DNA of 7,276 bases from Candidatus Martarchaeota archaeon (lineage in GTDB: Archaea > Micrarchaeota > Micrarchaeia > Micrarchaeales > CABMGC01). The notes beneath the pieces are model-generated. The model did not search any database. It had not been told where the DNA came from and saw nothing but the letters and a program-made list of their open reading frames with translations. A program made the position numbers and the translations under genes. Numbering within the stretch: position 1 is the first letter of the stretch; every line of letters begins with the position of its first letter. Where the stretch lies: NCBI GenBank assembly GCA_023487825.1, contig JAMDBP010000007.1, forward strand, positions 1 to 7,276. The letters run 5' to 3'. This document shows positions 1 through 7,276 of this stretch, piece after piece.

Positions 1-44
1 TGTTAATGTGTTGTATACGGTTATTTTGTTTTCAGGCATTGAAA

Positions 45-812
45 TCAACTACTGCTAGAAATGTTTGTGTTTACCAGTATGCCAGGCGTCTGTACAGGAG
101 ATGATCCTAAGTAGAAGTTTCCTGCGCTTATGTATGAGTACTTTGAGGATATTGAAGCTTCAAGGTCTGATACTATTCTAACGCTGGCATTCTGGCACAG
201 CAGAGGGTATAAGTTAATGCTACCGTTCATGTAAGTGGTAAAGTAGTTGGAAGTCAGGGATGAGTTAAAGGTATTGAAATGCACCTTCTCGAATACAGAA
301 TTATCAGATATTACCTCAAGATAAAGCCCTTTGTTCTGTGCAGAGAGTATTTTGAAGTTCAGATAAGGCTCAGTTACCAGAAACGGAGCTGATGTTAAAT
401 TGCCTTGACCAGATACGAACCCTTGGAAGGTTGAGGCTACGAAGGTATTGTTGTATCCTGACCATGGAGCTCCGTAGTAATTGTGCTGATTATTCTCGTA
501 GGTAAGGTTGATAGGTGCATTGCCGAAGGCTTTTCCGGTTATATTCCATCCGAGATAAGTGCCCGTAGAGAAGTTGCCATTATATATCGGCGTTGCTGTT
601 GGTGTTGATGGAACGCAGAACGTGTACGCGCTTCTTCTGGTAGTGGTAGATGTTGACGAGGTGGATATTGAAGTGGAAGTGGTAGTTGAAGTGGAAGTAG
701 TGGGCAGTACATGAATTACTGTTTTACCTCCTGTGTTCAGATTTAGCAATACTGCTATTATTACAAGTATGACGAGGACTCCTGCATATATGGCTAGTTT
801 CTTTGTGTTCAT
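45..812 (-). CDS. Membrane-anchored, Ser/Thr-stalked surface protein, probable N-glycoprotein with a jelly-roll-like ectodomain
   Basis: I do not recognise a named family. The 255-residue protein has a short basic N-terminus (KK at 4-5) and one hydrophobic segment at about 6-23, which looks like an uncleaved signal anchor. A low-complexity Thr/Ser stalk follows at 38-58, then an ectodomain of about 190 residues. The ectodomain carries nine N-X-S/T sequons (N80, N90, N102, N121, N138, N183, N196, N208, N250), so heavy archaeal N-glycosylation is plausible. The stretch from 78 to 96 (NGNF..G..LGW...G.AF) resembles the start of galactose-binding-like jelly-roll domains, and the rest looks beta-rich. 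Only two cysteines are present, C66 and C206, a possible disulfide closing the domain. The end is a Ser run before TGA. The ATG at 812 is followed directly by the anchor and is the only sensible start; it has no Shine-Dalgarno site. Role inferred: cell-surface or envelope protein. The ligand is unknown. Confidence 0.8.
   Translation of the reverse strand: MNTKKLAIYAGVLVILVIIAVLLNLNTGGKTVIHVLPTTSTSTTTSTSISTSSTSTTTRRSAYTFCVPSTPTATPIYNGNFSTGTYLGWNITGKAFGNAPINLTYENNQHNYYGAPWSGYNNTFVASTFQGFVSGQGNLTSAPFLVTEPYLNFKILSAQNKGLYLEVISDNSVFEKVHFNTFNSSLTSNYFTTYMNGSINLYPLLCQNASVRIVSDLEASISSKYSYISAGNFYLGSSPVQTPGILVNTNISSSS
669..703. repeat. Two-copy 18-bp-period tandem repeat in the Ser/Thr stalk
   Basis: On the plus strand TTGAAGTGGAAGT occurs twice at an 18-bp period (from 669 and from 687). 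It lies inside the stalk of the surface protein and encodes alternating Thr/Ser on the minus strand. Such short in-frame repeats can change length by slippage, which would shorten or lengthen the stalk without a frameshift. That role is inference. Confidence 0.5.
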
Positions 813-844
813 ATAGACATCTTAAGATAAAGATTTTAGTGTAT

Positions 845-854
845 ATTTATAAAT
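845..854 (-). promoter_or_regulatory. TATA box for the surface-protein gene, perfectly palindromic
   Basis: ATTTATAAAT is a perfect 10-bp palindrome centred about 38 bp upstream of the surface-protein ATG at 812. On the minus strand it would place transcription start near 820-825, giving a leader of about 10 nt. Because it is symmetric it could also bind TBP in the other orientation and contribute to eL41 transcription on the plus strand, with a leader of roughly 50 nt. Orientation is normally set by the flanking BRE, which I cannot decide here. Confidence 0.5.
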
Positions 855-870
855 TAGCTCTAATAAGCTT

Positions 871-883
871 AATAGATATATTG
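871..883 (+). promoter_or_regulatory. Candidate TATA element for eL41
   Basis: The A/T stretch AATAGATATATTG lies about 55 bp upstream of the eL41 TTG start. A start of transcription about 27 bp downstream would give a leader of about 28 nt containing the GGTG site, the same geometry as proposed for rpoH. The region is A/T-rich throughout, so other positions, including the palindromic box at 845-854, are possible. Confidence 0.3.
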
Positions 884-921
884 TTTTCATTATTTGTTAT
901 ATTTTAAGTATAATTAGCATT

Positions 922-925
922 GGTG
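922..925 (+). promoter_or_regulatory. Shine-Dalgarno site that decides the eL41 TTG start
   Basis: GGTG matches the anti-Shine-Dalgarno core at the archaeal 16S rRNA 3' end and sits 6 nt before the TTG at 932. It favours TTG932 over the in-frame GTG at 923, which overlaps the site itself, and over the ATG at 971, which would cut off the conserved N-terminal block. Confidence 0.6.
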
Positions 926-931
926 CTCATT

Positions 932-1045
932 TTGGGAAGCATACCTAGAAAATGGAAAAAGAAAGGACGAATGCGCTGGAAATGGGTAAAGAAAAGAAGG
1001 AAAAGAATAAAGAGAGCGCAGAAGAGAAGGGTAGGAGACCTTTAA
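932..1045 (+). CDS. rpl41e: Large-subunit ribosomal protein eL41 (L41e)
   Basis: This 37-residue, extremely basic protein begins MGSI and then contains the block [14 protein letters not shown], followed by [15 protein letters not shown] and a short VGDL tail. The block is essentially the archaeal eL41 sequence as I remember it from Thermococcales. The length also fits, since eL41 is 25-40 residues and one of the smallest ribosomal proteins. In the ribosome it is a single arginine/lysine-rich helix near the subunit interface, buried in rRNA. I start it at TTG932 because GGTG lies 6 nt upstream and the conserved PRKW block begins four codons later. Starting at ATG971 would lose that block. The gene stands alone, diverging from the surface-protein gene and converging on bud32 with 6 bp between the two stop codons. 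Confidence 0.88.
984..1012 (-). terminator. Pyrimidine-rich tract, candidate terminator of the trpS-kae1-bud32 operon
   Basis: Read on the minus strand, the antisense of the lysine-rich eL41 gene is a long T/C tract with several runs of three or four T, beginning about 40 nt past the bud32 stop. Archaeal intrinsic termination depends mainly on T-rich non-template tracts without a hairpin, so this is a plausible stop for the operon. No stem-loop is evident. Confidence 0.35.
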
Positions 1046-1051
1046 AGTTAG

Positions 1052-1639
1052 CTAAGCGAGTGTCCTTGTTTGGTATCTGCCTCTTTTCTTTATTTCGTTA
1101 AGTCTGGAGATTACCGTTAGGTACTCCTTTGATACCGAGGCATAGCCCTTCCTTGCATTTGCGTAATTAGCTTTGCTTACGGATCTTTCCAGCAGGAGCA
1201 GGTCTAACGCCTTCTCCTCCTCGCTGTTGGAGAAATTTCCAAGACCGAAATCTATTATGTACGGGCCGTTAGCAGTAAGTATAAGGTTTGCCGATGTGAA
1301 ATCCCCGTGGGTTATCCCTTTGGAATGCATGTAACCCAGGTACCTGCCTATGGTCTGCATGTCTTTTGCAGTAGGTTTTGAATCTTTGAGCAGCTTTCCT
1401 TCTATCTTCTGCATGAATATCGAGTATTTGCCTATTGCCGCTACCCCTGGCACGGCAGCGCCTGCCTTTTTTGCCATGACCATTAGCTTCGCTTCCTTCC
1501 TTGTCCTGCTTCTTCTTAGTTCCTCATCTATTATCTCTATCCGCCACGCTTTCCTGTTTCTCGCCTTTACAAGCAAAGGTCTGCCAGAAAGCCTTATCTC
1601 GAACATGACAGCTTCTGCACCCTCGCTTACCCTTTCCAT
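1052..1639 (-). CDS. bud32: KEOPS complex kinase/ATPase Bud32 (PRPK family)
   Basis: The 195-residue length is typical for stand-alone archaeal Bud32, a minimal RIO-like protein kinase. Visible motifs are the GAEA stretch at 7-10 in place of a glycine loop, the ATP-binding Lys in VKAR at K25, the AWR..IID..LRRSRT.KEA block at 31-50, the catalytic loop HGDFTSAN (H111-N118, D113 as base or ATPase Asp) and DFGLG (D130). The C-terminal tail ends with the basic RGR that Bud32 uses for Kae1 and tRNA contacts. In KEOPS, Bud32 acts as an ATPase supporting Kae1 in t6A37 tRNA modification in the cytoplasm. It overlaps kae1 by 13 bp in another frame. GAGGTGA lies 4 nt before the ATG, so its start is well supported. 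In several archaea the two are a single fused protein; here they are adjacent separate genes. Confidence 0.95.
   Translation of the reverse strand: MERVSEGAEAVMFEIRLSGRPLLVKARNRKAWRIEIIDEELRRSRTRKEAKLMVMAKKAGAAVPGVAAIGKYSIFMQKIEGKLLKDSKPTAKDMQTIGRYLGYMHSKGITHGDFTSANLILTANGPYIIDFGLGNFSNSEEEKALDLLLLERSVSKANYANARKGYASVSKEYLTVISRLNEIKKRGRYQTRTLA
1082..1095 (+). terminator. T-rich tract, candidate terminator of eL41
   Basis: TCTTTTCTTTATTT lies 37 nt past the eL41 stop on the plus strand and is antisense to the lysine/arginine-rich C-terminal codons of bud32. It has the T-rich character of archaeal intrinsic terminators, with no hairpin. It mirrors the opposite arrangement at 984-1012. Confidence 0.4.
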
Positions 1640-2598
1640 AATCTCACCTCGTCAATCCTGTATCTCTGCTCTATATCACATTCCTGGAGCTTCGCTTTTC
1701 TACCGTGTGAAAGCATCTGCTCTGCCACAAGTGCTATCATCGCACCGTTATCAGCATTGAATGTGTCTTCAGCAAAGCCGAATTTTATATGATGCTCCTC
1801 TGCCATACCTTTTAGCATGCGCTTCAGTCTCTTTGACTGTGCAACTCCTCCGCATACGCATAGTTCTTTTGAATTGGTCAGGAGCAGTGCACGTTCCGTG
1901 GCCTCCGTTAGCATGGCATACGCAGTCTCCTGAACTGAGAAGCATATATCCTTGTTGCTGTGCCTGCCTTTCATCTTTGAAGCATGTGTCAGAAGGCCGG
2001 TAAATGAAAAATCCATCCCTTTAACAGTATAGGGCATCTCTACGTATCTTCCTTTCTCTGCTGTCTTTTCCACTGTCGATCCCCATGCAGGATATAATTC
2101 AAGGGACCTTGCAAGCGAATCAAGCATGTTTCCTATCCCTATGTCGAATGTCTCTCCGAGTATCTTGTATCTGTCGCCGTATTTTTTTAATATCTGTGAA
2201 TTCCCGCCGCTTACGTAAAGAGCCAATGGGTCGTTTAACTTTGCTCTTCTCCTTGCTATCTCAATGTGGCCTATCCCATGGTTTACAGGGACTATTGGGA
2301 CGTTAAGCTTTTTTGCAATGGTCTTTGCAGAGAGCATGCCTACATGAAGGCAGTGTCCTATCCCTGGCCCTTTGGTGTAACCTATCCCGCTGATTTCTCT
2401 GAATTCTATTCCTGCTTCCTGTAGTGCATCTTGTATTACAATTGCAGCGTTATTCAGGTGCGTCTCGGCTACCTCTTTAGGTATCATGCCCTTGCTCCCT
2501 ATCTTATACATGGCCTTTGCATTTGCTATTACTCTCCCGTTATCGACTATGCCTACGCCAAATGTATGGGCACTGCTCTCTATTCCAAGTACTGCCAT
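1627..2598 (-). CDS. kae1: KEOPS catalytic subunit Kae1, tRNA N6-threonylcarbamoyladenosine transferase
   Basis: The 323-residue protein is full length for Kae1 (TsaD/Kae1/Qri7 family, ASKHA fold). It transfers the threonylcarbamoyl group to A37 of ANN-decoding tRNAs. Visible signatures are GIESSAHTFGVGIV at 5-18, the metal-binding pair H107 and H111 in VNHGIGHIE, Y128 with VSGGNSQ at 129-135, GETFDIGIGNMLD at 148-160, GGVA at 250-253 and the third metal ligand D283 in DNGAMIA. One deviation is that the Asn normally just after GGVA-X is Ser here (GGVAQSKRL, S255). The gene begins 10 bp after the trpS stop and overlaps bud32 at its end, so it is the middle gene of an operon. No strong Shine-Dalgarno site precedes ATG2598, so translation may be coupled to trpS. 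Confidence 0.96.
   Translation of the reverse strand: MAVLGIESSAHTFGVGIVDNGRVIANAKAMYKIGSKGMIPKEVAETHLNNAAIVIQDALQEAGIEFREISGIGYTKGPGIGHCLHVGMLSAKTIAKKLNVPIVPVNHGIGHIEIARRRAKLNDPLALYVSGGNSQILKKYGDRYKILGETFDIGIGNMLDSLARSLELYPAWGSTVEKTAEKGRYVEMPYTVKGMDFSFTGLLTHASKMKGRHSNKDICFSVQETAYAMLTEATERALLLTNSKELCVCGGVAQSKRLKRMLKGMAEEHHIKFGFAEDTFNADNGAMIALVAEQMLSHGRKAKLQECDIEQRYRIDEVRLWKG
1644..1650 (-). promoter_or_regulatory. Strong Shine-Dalgarno site of bud32 inside kae1
   Basis: On the minus strand GAGGTGA, a full match to the archaeal anti-Shine-Dalgarno sequence, sits 4 nt before the bud32 ATG at 1639 and lies within the last codons of kae1. It fixes the bud32 start and shows that bud32 is translated as a separate protein despite the overlap. 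Confidence 0.75.
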
Positions 2599-2608
2599 TT
2601 AATCAGGA

Positions 2609-3724
2609 TTAATCGTGTAACATGAAATCTTCAAGTTTATTCTCAAGCTTCTTCTTTGCTTCCCTGTGTTCCTTCAGGAATTTGTTTATGCGCATGGCAA
2701 GATCCTTCTTGTGTTCTCCTGCAAGAAGGCTGCCGTTCCTCTCACCTTCAAATATTGCATTTAGTTTTTTGTCATCAGGTTCAAACATGTATTTGTAGTA
2801 TTGGCACACTGCACATTTGTCGGGATTCCCACCGTGTTTCTTCTGAAGTTCTACCGTAGCCTGCTGTCCTGTTATCGCCTTGTTTACCTTCTTCACTACC
2901 GTCGCTTCGTCGTTAGAAAGATATATCGTATCGTTAGGGTCGCTTGATGACATCTTTGGGTTCATTGAGAGTCCGGGCATGAACTTTGATACAAGTGATG
3001 CAGGTTTATAATAGCCAAGCTTTGATATCGCGTTCCTTGCAACCCTGAAGTGCACATCCTGGTCAACTCCCATAGGGATAAGACAGGGAATGTTCTTCTC
3101 TGCCTGTACCGACTTCAGGAACGCAGGCACAGCCTGGAATGATGTGTAGAAGAGCGCGCCTATGTTCATGTCGTTACCGAATCCAAACGCATCCTTAACT
3201 ATCGAGTATGTTATGTATTTGGAGACACGGACCGCCTGCTTATACAGGGTCTTTGCGTATTCCGTATCTAGGAATATCTTCGTCTTTCTGCTGTCGAATC
3301 CCAAAGCAGCTACGTCCAGCGCGTCATCCATGGCAAGCGCATGCCCATTGTCAAGCGTGAATGCCGGATTGCGCTTGACCAGGAACTTTTCCTCGTCAGG
3401 AATCATTATCAGGACTTCAGCTCCGAACCTGTCTTGAAGCCATTTTGCCATCTGGAACTGCATGGTTTGTGCTATAGTCATCCCGCCTGACGGCGCTATC
3501 CCTGTATAAACGTAGAATCCGTTTCCTTTCTCATACTGGTCAAGAAGCCAGTTGAGATCCCTTTCTGCAAAGTATATGCCTCTGCGGATCATGTAGTTGC
3601 TGCCTTTTGCCAGTCTATCCAGTCTTTCCAGTGTTTCCGTGGTTAGCGGTTTGAGCCCGAAATCCGTAATTACCTTGTTGTAGTCTAGATCTCCTTTGAC
3701 TTCGTAGGGGTTTACTGTCTGCAT
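2609..3724 (-). CDS. trpS: Tryptophanyl-tRNA synthetase (archaeal/eukaryotic type) with a degenerate HIGH motif
   Basis: The 371-residue class Ic aminoacyl-tRNA synthetase aligns, from memory, with archaeal and human TrpRS along its length. It attaches tryptophan to tRNA-Trp. Visible landmarks are NPYEV at 5-9, RRGI.FAERD at 47-56, YTGIAPSG at 73-80, DEEKFL at 110-115, IPMGVDQD at 216-223, KMSSSDPND at 257-265, GG.ATVE..K.HGGNP in the C-terminal part and a helical end at 345-368. The HIGH motif, MHIGH in the family, reads MTIAQ (T83-Q86), so both histidines and the glycine are gone. The position equivalent to the tryptophan-contacting Gln (human Q194) appears to be M107. The reading frame is intact and KMSSS is perfect, so this is not simple decay. 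ATG3724 has a TATA box 29 bp upstream and is probably leaderless. It is first gene of the operon with kae1 and bud32. The family is clear; normal catalytic activity and specificity are uncertain. Confidence 0.88.
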   Translation of the reverse strand: MQTVNPYEVKGDLDYNKVITDFGLKPLTTETLERLDRLAKGSNYMIRRGIYFAERDLNWLLDQYEKGNGFYVYTGIAPSGGMTIAQTMQFQMAKWLQDRFGAEVLIMIPDEEKFLVKRNPAFTLDNGHALAMDDALDVAALGFDSRKTKIFLDTEYAKTLYKQAVRVSKYITYSIVKDAFGFGNDMNIGALFYTSFQAVPAFLKSVQAEKNIPCLIPMGVDQDVHFRVARNAISKLGYYKPASLVSKFMPGLSMNPKMSSSDPNDTIYLSNDEATVVKKVNKAITGQQATVELQKKHGGNPDKCAVCQYYKYMFEPDDKKLNAIFEGERNGSLLAGEHKKDLAMRINKFLKEHREAKKKLENKLEDFMLHD

Positions 3725-3748
3725 AGATATACATAGGGATAGATTATC

Positions 3749-3757
3749 TTATAATAC
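3749..3757 (-). promoter_or_regulatory. TATA box of the trpS-kae1-bud32 operon
   Basis: On the minus strand TATTATAAG is centred about 29 bp upstream of the trpS ATG. Archaeal transcription normally starts 25-30 bp from the TATA centre, which puts the start at or next to the A of the ATG, so the message is probably leaderless. No Shine-Dalgarno site precedes the ATG. Confidence 0.6.
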
Positions 3758-3869
3758 ATATTCTTATTTCACTTAAGAGGCATTAGCGTTTCCTTGCTGC
3801 ATTTACATTGTTTTAACCGGCATGTGTTATTTTTAATAGTGTTAGGTATCTGACCGCGCTTATTTGTCG

Positions 3870-3884
3870 TTCGTTATTTGCGAA
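3870..3884. repeat. Short inverted repeat upstream of the pilin-gene TATA box
   Basis: TTCG at 3870-3873 and CGAA at 3881-3884 form a 4-bp inverted repeat around 7 bases, ending 11 bp before the TATA box of the pilin-like gene. It could be a regulator site, but 4-bp arms are common by chance. Confidence 0.2.
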
Positions 3885-3895
3885 TGTATGATGGG

Positions 3896-3904
3896 TATTT
3901 AAAT
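3896..3904 (+). promoter_or_regulatory. TATA box of the pilin-like gene
   Basis: TATTTAAAT is centred 26 bp before ATG3926, with purine-rich GATGGG just upstream where a BRE would lie. Predicted transcription starts at the ATG, so the transcript is probably leaderless. No Shine-Dalgarno site is present. Confidence 0.65.
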
Positions 3905-3925
3905 GGGGGTTTTTAGAGTATATAG

Positions 3926-4756
3926 ATGTCGAAATTCCATGCAGATAAAGGTTCAGCCATATCAAGAAAACGTTCGGGAAAAGGACAGATATCATTAGAA
4001 TATATGCTAATATTTGCATTTGCATTTCTTATAGTAGCTGTTGTTCTGGCTCTCCTTTACGTTACAGGAACGCATAATACTACTGAATCGAACTCCTACT
4101 GCTATCTGACTCCTGACATGCCCTGCCAGGGAATGTATGTCATAGGCAATTCCGTAGATCCTACAAATGCAAAGGCATATGTGATATTCACAAATGAAAA
4201 AGGCATAGGAATAAATGTAAGGCCCGGTTCTTTTTACTTCTATCCGACGGCAAGCAATACCTTTTATTCTGGTGAATGCATCCCTTCAAACATACCGCAG
4301 GGAGGAATTGCTGTATGCAATGCTACTGTTAGCAATTTAGAGGAAGAGCTGCCCATAGGGATGCAGGTCAATCCGAAGTTCACTGTTGAATACAGTATTT
4401 GCAGCAATAATTATTGTGAGGGGCTTAGCCCTAATTCCATTAACTTCAACACTACAGGTACAGGAACAACATATGTGACACAGGGCACGCCTTCTCTTTA
4501 TTATATTACTATAAGTAGCAATAGCATAAACGTCACCGTGGACGGGGTAACTTATCTTCCAGGTTCAAAGCTTGCTGTGTTTAAGGGAGTGAGTTATACT
4601 ATTTTGGGGCAGGTCCCTCCCGGATATGTTTTTGGTTCATGGGCAAGCACCGGAGGAGTTAGTCTGTCTTCCGATTCACAATCAGCCATGTTTATCGCTT
4701 CTGCGAACGGAACAGTTTATGGAAGTAAAAATGCTGTGACAGCACCTGCATCATAG
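3926..4756 (+). CDS. Secreted pilin-like protein with class III signal peptide and C-terminal InlB-B-like beta repeat
   Basis: The 276-residue protein begins with a basic leader (RKRSGKG at 14-20), then QISLEYM at 21-27 and a hydrophobic helix to about 46. This is a class III (archaellin/type IV pilin) signal: a prepilin peptidase of the EppA/PibD/FlaK type would cut between G20 and Q21, leaving Glu at +5. A Cys-rich region follows (C59, C67, C118, C131, C159, C164; six, so possibly three disulfides) with several N-glycosylation sequons. The C-terminal part, about 192-264, has the pattern VDGVTYLPGS, GVSYTI, PPGYVFGSW, resembling divergent InlB B-type surface repeats. Inferred role: a minor pilin, adhesin or other surface-filament component. 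I see no pilin assembly ATPase, membrane platform protein or peptidase gene nearby, so it is an isolated pilin gene. The start is supported by the TATA box at 3896-3904. Confidence 0.85.
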   Translation: MSKFHADKGSAISRKRSGKGQISLEYMLIFAFAFLIVAVVLALLYVTGTHNTTESNSYCYLTPDMPCQGMYVIGNSVDPTNAKAYVIFTNEKGIGINVRPGSFYFYPTASNTFYSGECIPSNIPQGGIAVCNATVSNLEEELPIGMQVNPKFTVEYSICSNNYCEGLSPNSINFNTTGTGTTYVTQGTPSLYYITISSNSINVTVDGVTYLPGSKLAVFKGVSYTILGQVPPGYVFGSWASTGGVSLSSDSQSAMFIASANGTVYGSKNAVTAPAS

Positions 4757-4825
4757 GCTAATCCGATAATGGCTCTGTATTAGATTAATAGTATAGTCCG
4801 CGTAATGTTAACAAATCTATATAAA

Positions 4826-4836
4826 TCTTTTTATTC
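4826..4836 (+). terminator. T-rich tract, candidate terminator of the pilin-like gene
   Basis: TCTTTTTATTC, about 70 nt after the stop, is the strongest T-run in the intergenic stretch and fits an archaeal T-rich terminator. It lies just before the proposed rpoH TATA box, so transcription would stop where the next promoter begins. Confidence 0.4.
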
Positions 4837-4844
4837 TATAAATA
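4837..4844 (+). promoter_or_regulatory. TATA box of the rpoH-rpoB2-rpoB1 operon
   Basis: TATAAATA is centred about 53 bp before the rpoH start and predicts transcription from about 4867, giving a leader of about 27 nt that contains AGGTG. A second good TATA-like element, TATATAAAT at 4818-4826, lies 19 bp upstream and may be a tandem promoter. Confidence 0.5.
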
Positions 4845-4883
4845 GCGGAAGTGTCTGTGCTAGTCCCTACTCTTTATCTTTAT

Positions 4884-4888
4884 AGGTG
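4884..4888 (+). promoter_or_regulatory. Shine-Dalgarno site that decides the rpoH TTG start
   Basis: AGGTG lies 5 nt before the TTG at 4894 and matches the archaeal anti-Shine-Dalgarno sequence. No in-frame ATG exists before the conserved VPPHKLM block, so this site supports the TTG start. Confidence 0.65.
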
Positions 4889-4893
4889 TATAT

Positions 4894-5124
4894 TTGGCTG
4901 ATAGAAGTAATCATATTTTTGTACCGCCTCACAAATTAATGACTGATAAGGAGGTAAAAGAACTGCTGGAAGAATTGAGCCTGAAGCCTGAAAACCTGCC
5001 TAAAATCCTAGAGAGCGATCCGCAGGTGAAGATACTTAATGGCAAGGCTGGGCAGATAGTCAAGATAGACAGGACAGAGAACGGAGTCAAGGTACCTTAC
5101 TACAGAATGATTGTAGAAGGTTGA
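4894..5124 (+). CDS. rpoH: DNA-directed RNA polymerase subunit H (Rpo5, RPB5 homologue)
   Basis: The 76-residue protein is the archaeal form of RPB5: only the C-terminal assembly domain, without the eukaryotic N-terminal jaw. Family signatures are HIFVPPHKLM at 7-16 (usual H.LVP.HE.L), DKEVKELLEEL at 18-28, LPKILESDPQVK at 35-46 and PYYRMIVE near the end. In the enzyme it binds the largest subunit near the downstream DNA jaw and helps assembly. The start is TTG with AGGTG 5 nt upstream. The gene is first in the rpo operon, as in many archaea, and its TGA lies just before or within the possible starts of rpoB2, so translation is probably coupled. Confidence 0.96.
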   Translation: MADRSNHIFVPPHKLMTDKEVKELLEELSLKPENLPKILESDPQVKILNGKAGQIVKIDRTENGVKVPYYRMIVEG

Positions 5125-5126
5125 TT

Positions 5127-6614
5127 GTGGTTTCTATGGATAGTGAAAGCGTTTTGTTGGAATCTTATTTGGACACTATGCCTCTGATACAGCACCAGCT
5201 GGAGAGCTTCAACAGATTTGTAAGCCAGGGTTTGCAGCGTGTTGTAGACAGGCAGAATGTAGTGCAGCCTAGCGTCGAGGGCTTTTCATTGAAGCTTGGG
5301 AACGTCAGACTTGACAAGGCATCCATTATAGAAGCGGATGGGTCAAGAAGGCAGGTGATGCCTAATGAGGCCCGTCTGAGAAACCTCACATATTCTGCTC
5401 CTATATTCATAGAGGTAGTGCCGGTGATAAGAGGCATTGAGAAGAGGGCATCTTTTGGAGAGGTCTTCATAGGAGAGCTGCCTATCATGGTAAGAAGTGA
5501 TTTATGTTACATAAAGACAATGTCAAAACAGCAGCTGGTTGAAGAGGGAGAGGATGCTGATGACCCGGGAGGATATTTCATAATAAAGGGAGTTGAGCGC
5601 GTGCTCATAGGATTGGAAGACATAGCTCCTAACAGGATAATAACGACAAAGGGCAAAGGCGGAGACAAGGTAAACAGTGTTGTCTTCTCTACCGCACCAG
5701 GCTTCAGGGCTAGATGCGTGGTCTCAAGAAACCAGAACGGGGTCTACACTGTGGAATTCCCCACTATTTCAAAGAGTGTTAATCTGATACTTCTTCTTAG
5801 GGCGCTAGGAATGTCTGAAAAGGACCTTCTTAACAACGTATCAGATTCACTTTCATTCAGGAACGACATAATGTTGAACCTTGAGGTAAGCGATTACAAG
5901 GAGATGACACAGAATGAGGCAATATCAGAATTAGGAAGGATGGCAGCACCTGGACAGGCTGCAGAATACCAGTTATCTAGGGCAGAGACCCAGATAAACA
6001 ATTACCTTCTGCCTCACATAGGAGAGACAGCAGAAGACAAATACAAGAAAGCAGAGTATCTTCTTACAATGGCAAGGAAGGCGACAATGGTAGGTAACAA
6101 GCTCGCCCGCGAGGACGACAAGGACCATTACGCAAACAAGCGCATAAAGTTTGCAGGAGAACTGATGGAAGATCTTTTCACATATGCATTCAGATTCTTT
6201 ACAAAGGAGGTAAAGTATCAGATAGAGAGGACAAGTGCGCGTGGAAGGAAACTGAGCATACAGTCGATAATAAATCCTGACACAATAACAGAACGTATTT
6301 CTTATGCAATGGGAACAGGGACGTGGGTTGCAGGACAGACAGGAATATCGCAGGTTCTTGACCGCACAAATTTCTCCAGCGCTTACACTCATTTAAGGAG
6401 AGTGAAATCTCCTCTTGCAAAGAAGCATCCTCACTTCAAGGCAAGGGAGGTACACGGAACGCAGTGGGGTAAGATATGCCCTTCTGAAACTCCAGAGGGA
6501 CAGGAGGTAGGGCTTACGAAGTATCTTGCACTTATGTCCAAGGTTACGGTAGGTGCAGAAGAGTCTTCTTTCGAGGACAAATTAGTAGGTCTTAAGAAAA
6601 AGGCAAACGAGTGA
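5127..6614 (+). CDS. rpoB2: DNA-directed RNA polymerase subunit B'' (N-terminal half of the beta-like subunit)
   Basis: About 495 residues, the usual size of archaeal B'' when B is encoded by two genes. It corresponds to the protrusion, lobe and first part of the fork of RPB2. Diagnostic blocks are GYFIIKGVERVL followed by IAPNRI (about 5569-5640), DDKDHYANKR (6114-6143) and, near the end, SHLRRV-type THLRRVKSPLAKKHPHF, then GTQWGKICPSETPEG (about 6390-6500). The last block normally reads EGPNCGLVKN or EGQ.CGLVKN; here it is EGQEVGLTKY. Start choice is uncertain: TTG5121 overlaps the rpoH stop (TTGA) but has its AAGG directly adjacent, GTG5127 has AAGG 6 nt upstream and is preferred, and ATG5136 would remove only three more residues. 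None affects the conserved part. The next gene begins 4 bp after the stop. Confidence 0.97.
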   Translation: MVSMDSESVLLESYLDTMPLIQHQLESFNRFVSQGLQRVVDRQNVVQPSVEGFSLKLGNVRLDKASIIEADGSRRQVMPNEARLRNLTYSAPIFIEVVPVIRGIEKRASFGEVFIGELPIMVRSDLCYIKTMSKQQLVEEGEDADDPGGYFIIKGVERVLIGLEDIAPNRIITTKGKGGDKVNSVVFSTAPGFRARCVVSRNQNGVYTVEFPTISKSVNLILLLRALGMSEKDLLNNVSDSLSFRNDIMLNLEVSDYKEMTQNEAISELGRMAAPGQAAEYQLSRAETQINNYLLPHIGETAEDKYKKAEYLLTMARKATMVGNKLAREDDKDHYANKRIKFAGELMEDLFTYAFRFFTKEVKYQIERTSARGRKLSIQSIINPDTITERISYAMGTGTWVAGQTGISQVLDRTNFSSAYTHLRRVKSPLAKKHPHFKAREVHGTQWGKICPSETPEGQEVGLTKYLALMSKVTVGAEESSFEDKLVGLKKKANE

Positions 6615-6615
6615 T
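6609..6615 (+). promoter_or_regulatory. Shine-Dalgarno site of rpoB1 overlapping the rpoB2 stop
   Basis: GAGTGAT differs by one missing base from the ideal GAGGTGAT and lies 3 nt before ATG6619. It includes the rpoB2 TGA, so terminating ribosomes are already at the rpoB1 start, fitting equal production of the two halves of subunit B. Confidence 0.45.
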
Positions 6616-6618
6616 ATT

Positions 6619-7276
6619 ATGGCAAAGAACGAAATAACTCATGTTTACTTGAACGGAAGAGACATTGGAACCGTAGAGGATCCTCAGAAGTTCGTCAATG
6701 AGATAAGGAGTGCGAGAAGGACAGGAGTGATTTCAGGAGAGATAAACGTTGCGCACTATGCAAGGCAGCATTACATCAACATAAACAGCGACCGCGGAAG
6801 AGTTAGGAAACCATACGTAATAATAGAAAATGGAAAGTCAAAACTGACTAAGGAGATAATAGAGAAGCTTAAGAGCAAGGAGATAAATTTCAATTATTTG
6901 TTCAGGAACGGGATAGTAGAGTACTTGGACGCTGAAGAAGAGGAGAATGCGCTTGTCGCCTTCAACGAAAGCGATATAACAGAGAAACATACGCATGTCG
7001 AAGTGGACATCGCCTCGATATTCGGATTTACAGTGTCAACTTCCCCTTATGCAGAGCATAACAGTATTGCAAGGCACGCCATGCTTTCAAACTTCATAAA
7101 GCAGGCGCAGGGATTGTATGCGATTAACTTCAACCAGAGATTTGATTCAAGAAGCTATTTGCTTTTCTATCCGCAGGTACCTATAGTCAATACCGTTCCT
7201 TACAGAAAGACCAATATACAGAAACATCCTAGCGGACAGAATTTTGTAGTCGCGCTTTCAACATATTATGGATACA
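6619..7276 (+). CDS. rpoB1: DNA-directed RNA polymerase subunit B' (C-terminal half of the beta-like subunit), 3'-truncated by the window edge
   Basis: The frame is open from ATG6619 to the right edge, giving 219 codons, about a third of the usual B' length of 600 or more. It begins MAKNEITHVYLNGRDIG, matching the start of the external domain where archaeal B genes are split. Further landmarks are RRTGVISGEINVA, HTHVEVD..SIFGFTVSTSPYAEHN (usual ASL.PYPEHN), KQAQGLYAIN, YPQVPIV and, at the edge, SGQNFVVALSTYYGY (usual SGQN.VVA...Y.GYN.EDA). B' carries much of the hybrid-binding domain and the catalytic-centre contacts of the polymerase. The stop codon and C-terminal zinc clamp lie outside the window. 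The gene starts 4 bp after rpoB2, with a Shine-Dalgarno-like site over that stop. More rpo genes probably follow (rpoA1, rpoA2), as in other archaea. Confidence 0.97.
   Translation, partial: MAKNEITHVYLNGRDIGTVEDPQKFVNEIRSARRTGVISGEINVAHYARQHYININSDRGRVRKPYVIIENGKSKLTKEIIEKLKSKEINFNYLFRNGIVEYLDAEEEENALVAFNESDITEKHTHVEVDIASIFGFTVSTSPYAEHNSIARHAMLSNFIKQAQGLYAINFNQRFDSRSYLLFYPQVPIVNTVPYRKTNIQKHPSGQNFVVALSTYYGY

Follow-up and report, generated by a model that had tools for sequence, protein, structure and literature searches.

Can a class I aminoacyl-tRNA synthetase whose HIGH signature has lost both histidines and the glycine still serve as the tryptophanyl-tRNA synthetase (TrpRS) of its organism? 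The question is raised by a trpS gene in a 7,276-nucleotide stretch of DNA from Candidatus Martarchaeota archaeon (assembly GCA_023487825.1, contig JAMDBP010000007.1, positions 1 to 7,276 of the forward strand), hereafter the window. Sequence comparison and a structural model indicated that this gene very likely encodes a working, and probably the sole, TrpRS of a Micrarchaeota lineage, whose motif would have changed stepwise under strong purifying selection together with a remodelled ATP pocket.

The trpS gene and its TIAQ motif

The features of the gene considered here were as follows.

2609..3724 (-): trpS, archaeal/eukaryotic-type TrpRS, 371 aa
3467..3478 (-): TIAQ, residues 83-86, at the class I HIGH position (phmmer alignment and codons)
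3479..3508 (-): YTGIAPSGGM, strand and loop preceding the motif
3497-3499 (-): Ile76 of YTGIAPSGGM (Arg in 32/34 outgroup TrpRS rows)
3404..3406 (-): Met107, aligned with Gln194 of human TrpRS
3059..3070 (-): GVDQ, residues 219-222, class Ic GxDQ-type loop
2942..2956 (-): KMSSS, residues 257-261, second class I signature

Read on the minus strand from 3478 to 3467, the codons ACT ATA GCA CAA gave TIAQ, and phmmer alignment with solved structures placed these residues without a gap on the HIGH/HVGH of the Pyrococcus horikoshii (3jxe) and human TrpRS. Codons and alignment thus agreed with the initial annotation that TIAQ had replaced HIGH with loss of both histidines and the glycine. At least four base changes separated the window codons from any coding of HIGH, which bore out the multiple changes claimed there, and one change separated them from TIAH. 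The protein exceeded the cut-offs of the TrpRS families TIGR00233 (208.8 against 176.75) and PF00579 (98.1 against 21.1) but scored 423 bits with NF008927, the best-scoring TrpRS equivalog, below its cut-off of 478, and is therefore not filed under that equivalog. The predicted model of the protein showed the whole TrpRS subunit fold. Lys257 and Met258 of the KMSKS-type motif were present in 172/172 aligned rows, while the second KMSKS lysine was missing in all 172, the window included. The letters HIGH were absent, but they were not taken as defining class I, because the accepted TrpRS of Escherichia coli (TIGN) and tyrosyl-tRNA synthetase of Plasmodium falciparum (PfTyrRS; HIAQ) lack them too. 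The premise of the annotation that a TrpRS requires the HIGH histidines was, given the E. coli motif, too strong. Its description of the flanks as intact held for KMSSS and did not hold for YTGIAPSG, since position 76 is arginine in nearly all outgroup rows.

Six related contigs carried the segment, with TIAQ in L001, L002, L003, L005 and L024 and HIGQ in L004. TIAQ was encoded by ACC-ATA-GCG-CAA in L001 and L024, ACT-ATA-GCG-CAA in L002, ACG-ATA-GCA-CAG in L003 and ACT-ATT-GCG-CAG in L005, and HIGQ by CAC-ATA-GGG-CAG in L004. Over the 359 codons compared L024 did not differ from L001, and it therefore gives no independent support. The motif letters were kept despite synonymous change, an outcome that chance or a sequencing error would not yield; the annotation had already argued that a single error could not explain the motif. 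The ratio of nonsynonymous to synonymous substitution rates (dN/dS) of trpS was 0.022-0.064 in 18 of 21 pairs, figures that are rough with several dS values above 1.5 but clear in direction; no ratio was obtained for the remaining three pairs, one being identical and two having saturated dS. Overall, trpS is under strong purifying selection.

Distribution of the motif in Micrarchaeota

In a census of the window protein and the best 120 of 1787 matches (121 rows), the motif was TIAH in 57, TVAH in 15, TIGH in 13, TLGH in 10, TIAQ in 6, TLAH in 6, TVGH in 4, HIGH in 3, TMAH in 2 and HLGH in 2, with HIGQ, HCGH and TIGQ once each. Titled matches and loci ranking near the window protein were Micrarchaeota, Micrarchaeaceae or Marsarchaeota. 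A tree of 172 rows was built with the motif columns excluded, by a quick method with Shimodaira-Hasegawa-like approximate likelihood ratio test (SH-aLRT) support only. The set was reduced from 230 aligned rows by dropping type-2 TrpRS, the partial L055, L058 and L061, the distant L065 and L066, and rows that shared a motif and were near-duplicates at 96.5% identity; E. coli TrpRS was lost from the alignment in filtering, and its TIGN motif and PVGEDQ loop were read directly.

The tree separated a Micrarchaeota TrpRS clade of 138 rows (support 100), whose titled loci were all Micrarchaeota or Marsarchaeota, from 34 outgroup rows. The latter consisted of 28 titled loci from other archaea together with L138-L143, from genomes placed in the family of genome G002, and had histidine at motif position 1 in 33/34 (L063 having TLGH) and glycine at position 3 in 34/34. 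The window clade comprised eight rows (support 100), seven with TIAQ and one, L004, with HIGQ. Three rows elsewhere (P0090, L025 and P0118), which belong to another subclade, also had TIAQ or TIGQ. The minimum number of changes on the tree was 12, 36, 15 and 3 at positions 1 to 4, gains and losses not being distinguished. TIAQ thus lies at the far end of a series HIGH, TIGH, TIAH, TIAQ inside one Micrarchaeota TrpRS clade; the canonical HIGH of L138-L143 limits the series to that clade rather than to the whole group. The suggestion of a harmless clade variant, which presupposes normal charging, was matched on the sequence side (TIAQ in seven of eight clade rows).

Precedents in known synthetases

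A published rule holds that the HIGH glycine is essentially invariant and that histidine is never replaced by glutamine. TIAQ breaks both parts, and PfTyrRS contradicts the rule likewise. According to published accounts, PfTyrRS carries HIAQ and human TyrRS HVAY (PMC2813244, PMC7613620), PfTyrRS is active and charges tRNA (PMC7613620), and two of its residues, Ala72 and Gln73, are given as ATP-binding (PMC6366043). A study of P. horikoshii leucyl-tRNA synthetase (LeuRS) reports that the double-alanine AVGA enzyme retained measurable activity and that the same change raised activity in the urzyme (PMC10450160). Each letter of TIAQ has a class Ic precedent: threonine with an amide in TIGN, IAQ in HIAQ and alanine in HVAY. 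The combination in a TrpRS is new as far as the searches show, ordinary in its separate letters, and very probably functional. No description of an altered HIGH in Micrarchaeota or in DPANN archaea (Diapherotrites, Parvarchaeota, Aenigmarchaeota, Nanoarchaeota and Nanohaloarchaeota) was found in the open-licence literature searched.

The closest known systems were compared by sequence and by Foldseek matches of the window TrpRS model. With archaeal/eukaryotic TrpRS (3jxe and human 2qui) the window protein shared its whole length, the predicted fold, KMS(A/S)S, Tyr73 (human Tyr159) and the DQ of the GxDQ-type loop; it differed in TIAQ for HIGH/HVGH, Ile76 for Arg, Met107 for Gln194 and Gly219 for Ala. 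The bacterial TrpRS of E. coli shared threonine at position 1, a side-chain amide at position 4 and a glycine in the GxDQ-type loop, but had glycine rather than alanine at position 3 and asparagine rather than glutamine at position 4. By sequence score it belongs to another subfamily, so the likeness would be one of convergence. P. falciparum cytosolic TyrRS (3vgj) shared I-A-Q at positions 2-4 and a GIDQ loop, and differed in the histidine at position 1, in KMSKS and in being a TyrRS. Some isoleucyl-tRNA synthetases of type IleRS2 have a swapped G/A-X-H-H motif in which the third-position histidine takes the place of the first (PMC10485003); like the window protein they have lost HXGH naturally, as class I enzymes that work, but they keep histidine at both position 3 and position 4 and resemble the Micrarchaeota TyrRS described below instead.

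Proposed remodelling of the active site

The initial annotation had proposed an altered activation mechanism, which would hold only if taken mildly, as a remodelled ATP pocket. Thr83 may substitute for the first histidine, like the threonine of TIGN, and the side-chain amide of Gln86 for the second, like the asparagine of TIGN or Gln73 of PfTyrRS. Ala85 would pack on the adenine at the usual place of the glycine, like the alanine of HIAQ and HVAY, and the GxDQ-type loop, putatively part of the same pocket, usually has Gly219 rather than alanine. Most of the transition-state work would be carried by the KMSSS loop and the overall geometry.

Residues around the motif changed with it. Position 76 was arginine in 32/34 outgroup rows and isoleucine in 130/138 rows of the Micrarchaeota clade; Thr83 occurred with Ile76 in 120/127 rows, and rows with His83 mostly had Arg76 (32/44). 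The Thr83-Ile76 pair gave a likelihood ratio (LR) of 18.6 in a Pagel-type test, a value not ranked against all columns. Position 76 aligned with Arg162 of human TrpRS, as counted from the phmmer alignment. An N-terminal arginine of eukaryotic TrpRS and TyrRS is said, in a passage of PMC4082485, to replace the missing second KMSKS lysine; human Arg162 is presumably that arginine, the passage giving no number. As candidates for a compensating basic residue, columns 204, 235, 303, 311 and 338 were basic in the Micrarchaeota clade and not in the outgroup; none was placed at the ATP site, and no claim is made for them.

In the tryptophan pocket, the indole N1 of human TrpRS contacts Tyr159 and Gln194 (for Gln194, PMC2954223). 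The tyrosine is kept in the window protein as Tyr73, but Met107 replaces the glutamine. Met107 was found in 8/8 rows of the TIAQ clade and in none of the other members of the 172-row set, and the 161 rows with histidine at motif position 4 had Gln (147), Glu (12) or Tyr (2) there. Finally, Ala85 occurred with Gly219 in 91/94 rows and Gly85 with Gly219 in 28/78. A phi ranking of columns picked 219 for Ala85, and in the pairings listed the independent pairs showed 2-3 concordant and 0-1 discordant of 12. These data are suggestive of a methyl group having passed across the adenine, out of the GxDQ-type loop and into the motif, a reading kept at that strength because of the few independent pairs and the rank of column 219 given below.

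Several observations weigh against a sole, working and stepwise-altered TrpRS. Both Arg76 and the second KMSKS lysine are absent from the window protein, and methionine in place of a tryptophan-contacting glutamine would also fit an altered specificity. Three rows pair Ala85 with Ala219, and in the Pagel-type test the Ala85-219 association (LR 20.7) ranked fifth of 229 columns, behind 52, 360, 311 and 114 and under the 99% quantile of 22.3. The stem of the window clade is long, at 0.43 changes per column. L004 (8001-9113), whose HIGQ has histidine and glycine, is nested in the TIAQ clade with TIAQ-bearing L003 as sister (support 87), so that the two residues were either regained in it or lost repeatedly among its relatives. 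L138-L143, from the G002 family, represent another TrpRS lineage with canonical HIGH and 41-48% identity to the window TrpRS, and a divergent type-2 TrpRS (HxGH, KMSKS) was the only match of the window protein in some genomes of that family, e.g. G034, G035, G058 and G062.

A bolder form of the preferred reading, that the sole living TrpRS activates tryptophan by ATP positioning alone, with neither the HIGH histidines and glycine, nor the second KMSKS lysine, nor the replacing arginine, can be held only tentatively and is rather doubtful.

Search for a second TrpRS

An alternative is that the gene is a paralogue with another role and that a second, HIGH-bearing gene is the housekeeping TrpRS. 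The window protein was searched against the 79 genomes of the G002 family, 73 of which gave a match, and the type-2 TrpRS protein L088 served as a second query. Neither query found a second TrpRS in five TIAQ genomes of the window clade (G001, G002, G003, G005 and G065), bins whose completeness is unstated. A PF00579 scan gave TrpRS and one TyrRS in G001 and G002, one more TyrRS in G003, and only TrpRS in G005; G065 was covered by the protein queries only. By coordinates L024 is the G065 copy, and its identity with L001 of G001 means that the negatives of these two genomes are not fully independent. The strong purifying selection on trpS also speaks against a paralogue. However, G004 of the window clade carries the type-2 TrpRS L088 with HIGH beside its HIGQ gene, and G013, of the other subclade, carries L128 with HLGH beside its TIAQ gene (L025, by coordinates), so the idea is not dead. 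The long clade stem, the changed tryptophan pocket and the genomes with type-2 TrpRS alone likewise fit it; the last suggest that the TrpRS kinds seem to replace one another in the group. Overall, a paralogue beside a HIGH-bearing trpS, as the annotation had considered, is unsupported so far and improbable.

Two other arrangements of type-2 genes were observed. L144:8875-11260, continuing into L145 (G010:C1, ~902-913 kb), held a cluster of type-2 TrpRS-like genes with HIAQ, HLGH and HIGH adjoining an aminotransferase gene; the same genome encodes a TrpRS with TLGH as well. The cluster may be related to the TrpRS-A/TrpRS-A-like clusters described in PMC5370408. In L129:179-2494 and L130:79-2550 a type-2 TrpRS was followed directly by a diverged TrpRS-like open reading frame (ORF) with HLGH and TMSSS.

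tRNA-Trp and other synthetases

A further explanation is relaxed constraint, in which the motif decayed and tryptophan charging is slow or partly host-supplied, as could occur in a reduced DPANN symbiont. The bins are small (0.6-0.8 Mb) and both class Ic synthetases of the lineage, TrpRS and TyrRS, have abnormal motifs, which would suit it. Against it stand the dN/dS of 0.02-0.06, the motif letters that stay while synonymous sites vary, and the recurrence of TIAQ or TIGQ in another subclade. In addition, HxGH is retained in the copies of LeuRS, GluRS, ArgRS and CysRS that were read from these genomes. The motifs of the other class I enzymes come from G001-G005 and G065, though not each enzyme was read in all six, and names beyond the Pfam family were assigned by reading. 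GluRS had HIGH in 6/6 genomes and ArgRS in all four with a match; CysRS had HLGH in five long copies, the one in G005 being incomplete; the Leu-type enzyme had HMGH in five and HIGH in one; and a further class I enzyme of 789-823 aa had HIGH in six. MetRS showed HIGH or HLGH in three genomes and HIGS in G004 (MetRS-like L168), and three copies of the Ile-type enzyme had HPGH against two with HPAH (L149 and L151). Loss of both histidines is restricted to class Ic among the enzymes read.

The annotation had also raised dependence on a partner for Trp-tRNA, for which no evidence was found. ARAGORN run without introns named no tRNA-Trp among 38 loci of G002. Run with introns on the nine unnamed loci, it called L215 tRNA-Arg(cct), but hand reading makes L215 likely a tRNA-Trp(CCA) with an intron and A73, because its stem is GCTGG/CCAGC, its loop reads CT-CCA-intron-AA and the intron contains a box-C-like ATGATGA. 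Tryptophan residues are present in the Kae1, Bud32, RpoB'' and TrpRS of the window. Relaxed constraint is judged a very slim prospect. Finally, sequencing or assembly error is refuted by the different synonymous codons for TIAQ in L001, L002, L003 and L005.

A TyrRS lineage with an apparently displaced histidine

As a side finding, the TyrRS of G001-G004 had PIHS, PLHS or PLHT at the motif. The loci were as follows.

L072:1399-2493 (+): TyrRS
L073:1417-2511 (-): TyrRS
L074:1399-2493 (+): TyrRS
L075:1148-2314 (+): TyrRS

L072, L074 and L075, the three scanned, exceeded the cut-off of NF006330. Among 130 rows (the best 120 of 3858 matches, P0121-P0240, and 10 loci) the motifs included PIHF (63), GIHF (22), AIHF (8), PLHF (8) and PIHS (5). 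Positions 1 and 3 were P-H in 84 rows, G-H in 24, A-H in 9, S-H in 1, H-P (HIPF-like) in 6, P-Y in 1 and H-G in 5, and 124/125 odd rows had exactly one histidine across the two positions. The H-G rows L079, L081, L083, L090 and L091 (HFGT, HLGH, HLGS or HIGH) are copies in other or the same genomes, G003 having both kinds, and show that the odd motif is a lineage trait and not a phylum rule. The motif aligned with the HIAQ of PfTyrRS without a gap; the TyrRS model had a predicted local distance difference test (pLDDT) value of 89.6 and matched PfTyrRS with a template modelling (TM) score of 0.90. KMSKS was retained in the ten loci, and dN/dS for L072-L075 was 0.033-0.050, with dS partly saturated. 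The motif resembles the swapped G/A-X-H-H of IleRS2 but has Phe, Ser or Thr at position 4; the likeness is offered as a proposal by analogy. The odd TyrRS motif ranks as the stronger of the side findings.

Neighbouring genes

Two minus-strand genes lie downstream of trpS.

1627..2598 (-): kae1 (TIGR03722, 387.6 bits against a cut-off of 375)
1052..1639 (-): bud32 kinase (TIGR03724, 169.7 bits against a cut-off of 125)

The plus strand carries genes for RNA polymerase subunits H (PF01191; under the NCBIfam cut-off) and B'', followed by the beginning of a further B subunit gene. The kae1, bud32 and RNA polymerase genes mark an archaeal housekeeping region. Across 5121-7275 (+) RNA polymerase B is split over two genes, B'' and a second, and across 1052-2598 (-) the genes for Bud32 and Kae1 are distinct and overlap slightly. 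The ORFs at 3926-4756 (+) and 45-812 (-) had no Pfam or NCBIfam match; the start of the former, GQISLEYMLIFAFAFLIVAVVLAL, resembles by eye an archaeal pilin/flagellin-type signal.

Implications

If the window gene is a working TrpRS, the HIGH signature would be less indispensable than often stated, and inactivity of a synthetase should not be called from its motif alone. The graded series HIGH, TIGH, TIAH, TIAQ and HIGQ in one clade offers ready-made constructs for measuring the contribution of each residue. Should the TrpRS indeed act by ATP positioning alone, then, together with the shift of the TyrRS histidine from position 1 to position 3, these Micrarchaeota would represent a natural experiment in the rebuilding of class Ic active sites.
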